Positions 23,209-25,406 of a stretch of 42,488 nucleotides of DNA are shown here, piece by piece. The stretch spans positions 1 through 42,488 of the forward strand of contig JAAYZA010000318.1 of the NCBI GenBank assembly GCA_012515055.1, read 5' to 3'. The stretch comes from Syntrophomonadaceae bacterium (lineage in GTDB: Bacteria > Bacillota > Syntrophomonadia > Syntrophomonadales > Syntrophomonadaceae). A program made the translations under genes and the position numbers. Positions within the stretch are counted from its first letter, which is position 1; every line of letters begins with the position of its first letter. The notes below the pieces were generated by a model that had not been told where the DNA came from, made no database searches, and saw only the letters and a list, made by a program, of their open reading frames with translations.

Positions 23209-23289
23209 AAAGTCTTGAAAATACTTCTAGCATATAACTTTTTGACCGGGAAACAATAAGATTACATCAAAACAAAGGAGGTGACAAAA

Positions 23290-23499
23290 ATGGCACCAAG
23301 CAGCAACAGACTCCTTGTTCCCCAGGCCAGGGCCGCAATGGACCAGTTTAAATTCGAAGCGGCTCAGGAAGTCGGAGTAAACTTAAAACAGGGCTATAAT
23401 GGCGACCTGACTTCCAGAGAAGCTGGCAGCATCGGCGGACAGATGGTTAAAAAGATGATACAGGCTTATCAACAGGGTCAAGCCGGTGGATTGTCCTAA
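23290..23499 (+). CDS. Alpha/beta-type small acid-soluble spore protein
   Basis: DNA-coating spore protein that protects spore DNA and is digested at germination. The 69-residue protein MAPSSNRLLVPQARAAMDQF... has FKFEAAQEVGVNLKQGYNGD, which includes the GPR cleavage region, and the conserved LTSREAGSIGGQMVKKMI helix that binds DNA. ATG 23290 stands 7 bases after AAAGGAGG; GTG 23281 in the same frame overlaps that site and is unlikely. It is convergent with gpr, which encodes the protease for this substrate. Confidence 0.95.
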   Translation: MAPSSNRLLVPQARAAMDQFKFEAAQEVGVNLKQGYNGDLTSREAGSIGGQMVKKMIQAYQQGQAGGLS

Positions 23500-23595: not shown

Positions 23596-24555
23596 TCAGG
23601 TAGCATACAAAACCAGTTGTTCTTCTTCTATACCGGGGAATAATGATTTGCCCACCCCCAGTGCTATTATACGGGAAGTATTCTCAATTATGTCGTCAAT
23701 TTCCTTGGGTGTGACGGTTAATCCCCCGCCAAAAAAGGACAAAATTTCTTTAACTGCTTCAATCGAAGCATTATTATCATATTCAGCTGACATCCGGGAA
23801 CAGAAGCTGCGGACAGCCTGATCCGCTATGAGGGCTGCATTGACGATGGTGGGACAACCAACGGCGATAACAGGTACTCCTAATCCTTCCACAGTTAAAG
23901 CCTGGCGTTGATTGCCTATGCCGCCACCGGGCTGGATGCCGGTATTGGACATCTGGATGGTGGTGCCGATGCGTTCAACACTGGCAGCGGCCAGCGCATC
24001 TACTACCACCAATAAAGCTGGTTTGATTTTCTCCACTACTCCTTTGACAACTTCAAAGGTTTCCACACCGGTAATGCCAAGAACTCCGGGAGCTATCCCC
24101 GAGGTCGGACGCATGCCCTTGACCAGGGCATCTGGTGCATGTTGATGGTAATGCCGGGTAATAGGACTGTATTCAATGAATTTGGGTCCCAAAGAATCTG
24201 CTGTAGCCCGCCAGTTGCCCAGACCGACCAATAATACTGAATCGCGGGATGTGAGTAAATCCGCAGTCAGAAGCTGCATGGCTTTTTCCATAGCCTGGAT
24301 GATTTCTGCTTTTACATAGGGGTCATTAAATTTTAAGGGGGGGGATTCAATAGTGATATAGCTTCCCTTCGGCCTTCCCAGAGATCGGGCTCCTTTTTCG
24401 TTTAGAATAGTAATTGTTGTGGTTTTGATGAATTCACCCTGAGTAATTTCTTCTTTGACGCCTTCCACTTCCCGGCGGGTTGCACCCCGCAGTAAATCAT
24501 GGGCTTCTATGGCCAGATCCAGGTTCAGGTTGAATTCTTCGATGAGCTTTTTCAT
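23596..24555 (-). CDS. gpr: Germination protease GPR
   Basis: Spore endopeptidase that starts the breakdown of SASPs at germination; it is made as a zymogen in the forespore. The 319-residue protein has the family's LDLAIEAHDLLRGATRREVEGVKEE, GSYITIESPPL, VLLVGLGNWRATADSLGPK, PGVLGITGVETFEVVKGVVEKI and VVVDALAAASVERIGTTIQ blocks. AAAAGGAGGTTGTAA precedes its ATG. A short N-terminal propeptide ahead of the LAIEAHDL region is consistent with autoprocessing. Its substrate gene is its immediate convergent neighbour. Confidence 0.96.
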   Translation of the reverse strand: MKKLIEEFNLNLDLAIEAHDLLRGATRREVEGVKEEITQGEFIKTTTITILNEKGARSLGRPKGSYITIESPPLKFNDPYVKAEIIQAMEKAMQLLTADLLTSRDSVLLVGLGNWRATADSLGPKFIEYSPITRHYHQHAPDALVKGMRPTSGIAPGVLGITGVETFEVVKGVVEKIKPALLVVVDALAAASVERIGTTIQMSNTGIQPGGGIGNQRQALTVEGLGVPVIAVGCPTIVNAALIADQAVRSFCSRMSAEYDNNASIEAVKEILSFFGGGLTVTPKEIDDIIENTSRIIALGVGKSLFPGIEEEQLVLYAT

Positions 24556-24576: not shown

Positions 24577-24606
24577 TATTGTCTGTTATAAGGGAGTGTT
24601 TTATAC
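24577..24606 (-). promoter_or_regulatory. Possible forespore (sigma F/G) promoter of gpr
   Basis: Read on the minus strand, GTATA (24606-24602), a 17-base spacer and AGACAATA (24584-24577) resemble the forespore sigma pattern GTATA-N(15-18)-xxxxAATA. This agrees with the known forespore expression of gpr, but the -10 match is partial. Confidence 0.35.
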
Positions 24607-24608
24607 CC

Positions 24609-24728
24609 AACCAAATAAAACGGCGACTTTTTCAAGTCGCCATTTTGGGGAGAGGAGAATTTTGTAAAGTTGTTGGGGAGGGTTTGTTTCCAGACTTTCT
24701 CTGGTAATAATATGATTGCCCGGTAGAT
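24609..24728 (-). ncRNA. Candidate C-rich small RNA between gpr and rsmD
   Basis: On the minus strand a consensus TATAAT (24739-24734) is followed by about 120 bases without coding potential. This stretch has a CCAGA/TCTGG hairpin (24704-24690), the single-stranded C-rich blocks CCCTCCCC (24682-24675) and TCTCCTCTCCCC (24658-24647), and an intrinsic terminator GGCGACTT-gaaa-AAGTCGCC (24641-24622) followed by GTTTTATTT. C-rich loops complementary to Shine-Dalgarno sequences are typical of Firmicutes regulatory RNAs. The -35 region is only A/T-rich, so the promoter is uncertain. Confidence 0.42.
24617..24646. terminator. Intrinsic terminator in the gpr-rsmD gap
   Basis: AAAA-c-GGCGACTT (24617-24629) pairs with AAGTCGCC-a-TTTT (24634-24646), with T-rich flanks on both strands. 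It lies upstream of both neighbouring genes, so it belongs to neither. Confidence 0.75.
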
Positions 24729-24836
24729 AAGATATTATACAAAAAAATTAAAAAAATTTTATATGATAAAATATGTTAAAGCAAAAGAGGAAAATATCTT
24801 TAAAAATCGAATCAGCTAGAAGGAGATACTTTATCA

Positions 24837-25406
24837 ATGAGGGTTATCAGCGGCATTGCCCGGGGCAAAAATTTAAAGGCTCCGCCAGGCAATGAGACCA
24901 GGCCCATAACCGATATGATCAAAGAAGCCCTGTTCAATGTTTTGGGGCCAGATATACAGGGAGCAGATTTCCTGGATCTTTTCGCTGGCAGCGGCAGTGT
25001 GGGCATAGAAGCCTTGAGCCGGGGGGCTGACCGGGTTGTTTTTATTGACAACAGCGGCCCAGCGGTGCAGGTTATTCAGGCCAATCTGGACCATTGCCAT
25101 TTTACCGAAAAATATGAAGTGTTTAAAAATGATGTTTTTAAAGCTGTTGACCGCCTGAAAAAAGATAGTAGTTGGTTTGATTATATTTATATTGACCCGC
25201 CCTTTACTCAGGAAAACATTTTTCCTGAAATACTGGGGAAAATGGACGAAACACAATTGTTAAAAGATCAGGGGACTCTGATTATCAGGACACCCAGAAA
25301 GATGAAAATGCCGGCCGCTTTAAAAAATATGCAGCGGGTACGGCATAATCATTATGGTGAATCTACCTTACATTATTATCAATCAATCATAAAAGGAGGT
25401 AATTAA
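24837..25406 (+). CDS. rsmD: 16S rRNA (guanine966-N2)-methyltransferase
   Basis: Methylates G966 of 16S rRNA in the assembled small subunit with SAM. The 189-residue protein begins MRVISGIARGKNLKAPPG, then the SAM-binding LDLFAGSGSVGIEALSRGA (about residues 46-64) and the catalytic YIYIDPPF, an NPPY-type motif. AAGGAG precedes ATG 24837. Five bases separate it from the following coiled-coil gene, so they are cotranscribed. Confidence 0.95.
   Translation: MRVISGIARGKNLKAPPGNETRPITDMIKEALFNVLGPDIQGADFLDLFAGSGSVGIEALSRGADRVVFIDNSGPAVQVIQANLDHCHFTEKYEVFKNDVFKAVDRLKKDSSWFDYIYIDPPFTQENIFPEILGKMDETQLLKDQGTLIIRTPRKMKMPAALKNMQRVRHNHYGESTLHYYQSIIKGGN

Follow-up and report, generated by a model that had tools for sequence, protein, structure and literature searches.

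The gap between gpr and rsmD in the window, by which we mean the whole analysed stretch of 42,488 nucleotides, raises the question of whether it holds an RNA gene in its own right and, if so, to which known RNAs this gene is related. A sequence-only reading had proposed a C-rich regulatory RNA here, and the features it named, a TATAAT (24739-24734), a hairpin, two C-rich blocks and an 8-bp GC-rich stem, all lie on the minus strand. Our analysis places the RNA gene at approximately 24705-24612 of that strand, with a 5' hairpin, an open linker containing the two C-rich blocks, and an intrinsic terminator. At a probability of roughly 0.75, we read it as a diverged homologue of CsfG, a sporulation-specific small RNA (sRNA) of Bacillus, with a forespore promoter and its own terminator, which would act in trans on Shine-Dalgarno regions. 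The features of the locus, starting from rsmD, the gene called ylbH in Bacillus, are the following:

24837..25406, plus strand: rsmD (ylbH), the divergent neighbour and marker of the CsfG locus (Pfam PF03602; synteny).
24736..24740, minus strand: -35 element GTATA of a putative forespore-type (sigmaF/sigmaG) promoter, a motif conserved in homologues.
24711..24720, minus strand: putative -10 element GGCAATCATA; the commonest forms in relatives are GGTAATGATA and GGCAATGATA.
24612..24705, minus strand: predicted small RNA of about 94 nt, from conservation and covariation; the 5' end follows from promoter spacing and may shift by a few bases either way.
24690..24704, minus strand: 5' hairpin CCAGA-GAAAG-TCTGG; 20 distinct stems in 47 copies, with compensatory changes.
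24675..24682, minus strand: C-rich block 1, CCCTCCCC, invariant in 46 aligned copies.
24647..24682, minus strand: single-stranded linker of 36 nt, conserved across the order and unpaired in folds.
24647..24659, minus strand: C-rich block 2, TTCTCCTCTCCCC, whose first 12 bases also occur in CsfG from Bacillus and from other Clostridia.
24612..24646, minus strand: intrinsic terminator, a stem-loop (24646-24617) followed by ATTT; 25 distinct stems of 7-14 bp in 47 copies.
24577..24606, minus strand: candidate forespore-type promoter of gpr itself, GTATA-N18-GACAATA, 3' of the sRNA terminator and suggested by its motif only.
23596..24555, minus strand: gpr, germination protease (Pfam PF03418).

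The full linker reads CCCTCCCCAACAACTTTACAAAATTCTCCTCTCCCC, starting with CCCUCCCC and finishing with UUCUCCUCUCCCC. The terminator stem comprises 13 pairs, one of them G-T, and contains the perfect 8-bp GC-rich stem GGCGACTT/AAGTCGCC; in a simple scan of 2.5 kb it was the strongest of six matches. Folded as the minus strand, the element surpassed 200 of 200 shuffles (z = -3.7), and our own covariance model had this locus as its sole match in the window, with 109.6 bits.

A search with gpr identified Syntrophomonas and Syntrophomonadaceae genomes as the nearest relatives of this genome, that of a spore-forming anaerobe of the Syntrophomonadaceae kind. Across the order Syntrophomonadales, a 127-base stretch of the locus was present in 40 of 46 genomes (E <= 1e-16). 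The sequence-only reading had made conservation of the C-rich blocks and the stem in relatives a test of its proposal, and this conservation was found: 44 of 46 distinct copies have the same linker, the other two (L069 and L074) carrying one small change each, and both hairpins covary. At the same loci, protein identity falls to 52% for gpr and to 42% for RsmD. In the two hairpins, 8 of 11 pairs have changed on both sides; such changes filled 54 cells, compared to 14.4 in shuffles, with none of 500 shuffles as high, and pairing was kept in 93.7% of cells, compared to 16-40% for slid structures. The combination of a constant linker with covarying hairpins shows that the element is not a product of chance. 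Judged from these alignments, it is the pattern expected of an RNA that interacts through an unchanging single-stranded region, and the comparison strongly supports the proposed small RNA of the minus strand, C-rich, non-coding and ended by a terminator, as a real and highly conserved gene.

The same alignments bear on the possibility of a very short peptide encoded by the conserved stretch. Here, the sole sizeable local frame on the minus strand, which has 36 codons and a TTG start (24742-24632), overlaps the element. Because the overlapped hairpins change length between relatives, this frame is not a conserved gene; the flanking hairpins vary in sequence as well, with their pairing kept, and the constant linker contains no ATG and holds every base, third codon positions included. 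A peptide is thus highly improbable.

Six Syntrophomonadales genomes gave no match (G040, G014, G016, G042, G018, G033). In G040 the contig end falls inside the 5' hairpin, and the assembly of G014 is without rsmD. G016 and G042 yielded no sigG-grade match, and in G042 rsmD and its upstream region are present with no such RNA element there. G033 and G018 are members of a single genus; their loci (L113, L114) have retained promoter, 5' hairpin and terminator, but the C-rich blocks in them have decayed.

Where the transcript begins depends on the promoter, and in this respect the sequence-only reading, which took TATAAT as a promoter element and expected the 5' end near 24728, was probably wrong. 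TATAAT starts inside the GTATA of the -35 element; relatives read GTATAGA, GTATGTT or GTATATT at this site, so that TATAAT is not conserved, whereas GTATA is, and GTATA fits a -35 rather than a -10 position. The promoter of this sRNA reads GTATA-N15-GGCAATCATA, and the general form of the motif (GTATA or GTATG, 14-15 bases, GGNNANNHTR) occurs in 40 of 47 distinct copies, compared to 0.7% of shuffles. It fits the sigmaF/sigmaG consensus of B. subtilis, and a similar motif stands before a SASP gene in the same window. The promoter is probably of the forespore type (sigmaF/sigmaG), and its spacing would put the transcript start at the base of the 5' hairpin, near 24705.

The alpha/beta SASP gene lies at 23281-23499, with the forespore-type promoter motif GCATA-N14-GGAAACAATA ahead of it (23230-23258, plus strand); as the gene of a small acid-soluble spore protein, it is an expected forespore gene. 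This gene, the germination protease gene gpr and the sRNA are found within 1.5 kb.

Of the two neighbours only rsmD is divergent; gpr lies downstream of the element on the same strand, so that the earlier description of both genes as starting outward from the gap is right for rsmD and wrong for gpr. This arrangement, seen in most of the order, would suit a cis-acting leader or attenuator of gpr, whose terminator stops transcripts before the gene until a signal permits the polymerase to proceed. In Thermosyntropha, however, the RNA stays beside rsmD with gpr about 3 kb away (L004 compared to L043), and gpr is often absent near CsfG-type loci, the neighbour of CsfG in Bacillus being ylbG, whereas that of the Syntrophomonadales RNA is gpr. 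Further, there is no conserved alternative pairing that could break the terminator, the linker being open, and a separate promoter-like motif stands between the terminator and gpr. We consider control of gpr in cis to be improbable. Because a putative forespore-type gpr promoter follows it (24606-24577), the terminator appears not to serve gpr, and the earlier proposal that it serves neither neighbour still looks right.

An Rfam scan of the window found no family at its gathering score. The weak matches shown, to RmaA, SQ2397, STnc250 and other families, are mostly due to the terminator stem and were discarded; RsaE was not among them. The ylbH leader model (RF00516) matched the element on the plus strand with 14.2 bits, below its gathering cut-off of 50, and taken at its name this would make the element a plus-strand leader of rsmD. 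Yet the terminator tail is functional on the minus strand only, a Northern blot in B. subtilis gave a signal for no strand but the one opposite ylbH (PMC3574147), and transcription from the conserved promoter would lead away from rsmD. An rsmD leader has, in our estimate, a very small chance of being correct. The RF00516 entry, filed as cis-regulatory, is itself the reverse complement of CsfG, and thus an sRNA gene entered on the wrong strand.

CsfG has been described as conserved in endospore formers. In B. subtilis it contains conserved CU-rich stretches and co-purifies with Hfq (PMC3574147, PMC8216469); it is controlled by sigmaF and sigmaG in the forespore, and no target was known in 2021 (PMC8216469). 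In B. velezensis, RF00516 scores 130 bits and UUUCCCCAUAAGUUCUUCCUCCGGUUUCUCCUCUCCC lies on the strand opposite rsmD. The pattern CCCTCCCC-N5-30-TTCTCCTCTCCC was present in 79 of 398 genomes of the phylum and its reversal in none of the 398; outside Syntrophomonadales most copies read CCCTCCCCCATRAGCTCTTCCTCCGGTTTCTCCTCTCCC, which is near the Bacillus linker. In 27 of 30 analysed loci of this CsfG type, rsmD is divergent at 91-250 nt, and GTATA-N17/18-CATAATA or AATAATA occurs in 18 of these 30, compared to 0.96% of shuffles; of 13 loci scored with RF00516, 12 gave a match on the opposite strand, with 29-45 bits (cut-off 50). In the Syntrophomonadales, all loci holding rsmD have the start side of the RNA facing it, at about 109-460 nt. 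Three CsfG-type loci (L082, L083, L092) had no rsmD within about 1.5 kb, and one genome (G093) has two CsfG-type copies, on contigs C4 and C18.

The Syntrophomonadales RNA and the CsfG of Bacillus share their divergence from rsmD/ylbH, a promoter motif of the forespore type, a terminator, spore-forming hosts, a C-rich first block and, exactly, the block UUCUCCUCUCCC. They differ at the 5' side, where CsfG has a hairpin carrying its first C-block, whereas the Syntrophomonadales RNA has a short hairpin without one; further, the middle C-block of CsfG, CUCUUCCUCC, is absent and the whole order has AACAACUUUACAAAA instead. With the clostridial CsfG-type RNAs (CCCTCCCCCATRAGCTCTTCCTCCGGTTTCTCCTCTCCC) it has in common both end blocks, including CCCUCCCC, the position and the promoter class, but not the linker middle or the first hairpin. 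In CsfG-type RNAs block 1 is located in or near a hairpin loop, whereas in the Syntrophomonadales RNA both blocks are on the open linker. In alignments of the linker to that of clostridial CsfG, only 6 of 5000 doublet shuffles scored as well or better; the similarity to the Bacillus linker was weak, with 468 of 5000 as good. R1, a covariance model built on the Syntrophomonadales RNA, found five CsfG-type loci in the right place, with E-values of 0.0019-0.18. Descent from a CsfG-type ancestor is likely, mainly on the grounds of place, promoter and shared end blocks. Since neither the first hairpin nor the middle C-block of CsfG is present, and the RF00516 score lies below the cut-off, we class the RNA as a diverged CsfG-type sRNA and not as a member of RF00516.

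The association with sporulation was followed across the phylum. We found sigG (E <= 1e-95) in 77 of 79 pattern-positive genomes, the two exceptions being 81% and 61% complete, and in 256 of 319 pattern-negative ones (Fisher p = 5.7e-5, overstated since the species are related). Among good assemblies, all 69 positives had sigG (p = 5.9e-6, overstated for the same reason). Upstream of rsmD in the non-sporulating Listeria and S. aureus there was nothing similar. By these counts, CsfG-type RNAs track sigG across the phylum and appear confined to endospore formers.

Two other C-rich RNAs have to be considered: RoxS/RsaE, to which the sequence-only reading had likened the element, and FsrA, a Fur-regulated iron-sparing RNA that sits at another locus than the Syntrophomonadales RNA. 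As a working analogy the likeness to RoxS/RsaE is fair, given that RoxS, FsrA and CsfG have been placed together as the three sRNAs of B. subtilis that contain C-rich regions (PMC8216469), but the closest relative is CsfG, because of the place, the promoter type and the shared motif. RoxS/RsaE is likewise a small RNA with several C-rich regions able to pair with Shine-Dalgarno sequences (PMC4409812), yet RoxS is controlled by ResDE (PMC4409812), whereas the Syntrophomonadales RNA has a sporulation-type promoter; the C-rich regions of FsrA are predicted to be single-stranded (PMC4409812, PMC8216469). An independent sRNA like RsaE/RoxS or FsrA, sharing place and motif with CsfG through convergence, would be in line with C-rich blocks that are short and of low complexity, with an RNA middle unlike that of CsfG, and with the weak alignment of the Bacillus linker when taken alone. 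Against such an origin, the element matches CsfG in place, strand, promoter class and the order of two exact blocks, as well as in its terminator and its sporulation association, and no Rfam family was found at threshold. We therefore regard convergence as unlikely.

How would a diverged CsfG act? The sRNA would be transcribed from its sigmaF/sigmaG promoter, presumably in the forespore only, and ended by its own terminator, the 5' hairpin protecting the RNA end. The two constant single-stranded C-rich blocks, both complementary to G-rich ribosome-binding sites, could then pair in trans with Shine-Dalgarno regions, perhaps assisted by Hfq, and would thereby keep some mRNAs of the developing spore from being translated. 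RoxS acts in this manner (PMC4409812). An hfq gene is present in the same genome and in 11 of 12 relatives. Of the mechanisms considered, we infer Shine-Dalgarno pairing in the forespore to be the best supported.

The sequence-only reading had suggested target prediction against Shine-Dalgarno regions. Complements of the blocks before start codons provided a list of candidate targets in the same genome. The one striking candidate, rpsU, was demoted by controls. Block 1 is exactly complementary, over 8 nt, to the rpsU ribosome-binding site, GAGGGGAGGGA. In the Syntrophomonadales (L198-L221), the rpsU (bS21) site reads GAGGGGAGGGA in all 20 loci written out and is of the GGGGAGGG type in 24 of 24. 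Near-identical sites (GGAGGGAGGGA or similar) are found in Listeria, Paenibacillus, Monoglobus, Subdoligranulum and Acetoanaerobium, and also in G042, which has neither sigG nor the RNA. As the site is kept where the RNA is absent, it must be conserved for another reason: rpsU may be bound by the sRNA, but the conservation of its site is no evidence for this. The unusually constant Shine-Dalgarno site may point to a control specific to bS21. A search in relatives for GGGAGAGGA before ATG showed no recurrent gene above the G-rich Shine-Dalgarno background.

A broader role is conceivable, though doubtful, in which CsfG-type RNAs are decoys of the 16S anti-Shine-Dalgarno tail and help to shut down translation as the forespore goes dormant. 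Their CUCC-rich blocks would then cover Shine-Dalgarno sites in general, or attach to bS21 or to the rpsU mRNA, whose ribosome-binding site GGGGAGGG is exactly complementary to block 1.

For the family, these results mean that Rfam RF00516 describes the wrong strand of the gene and fails to detect the whole order Syntrophomonadales. The near-identical linker offers a precise mutant series for finding targets, and the loci with decayed C-rich blocks (L113, L114) are a natural test of the purpose of these blocks. The diverged form of the RNA in these syntrophic bacteria suggests which parts of CsfG are indispensable, namely the two C-rich ends, the forespore promoter and the terminator, the linker being kept almost identical and the rest being free to change.
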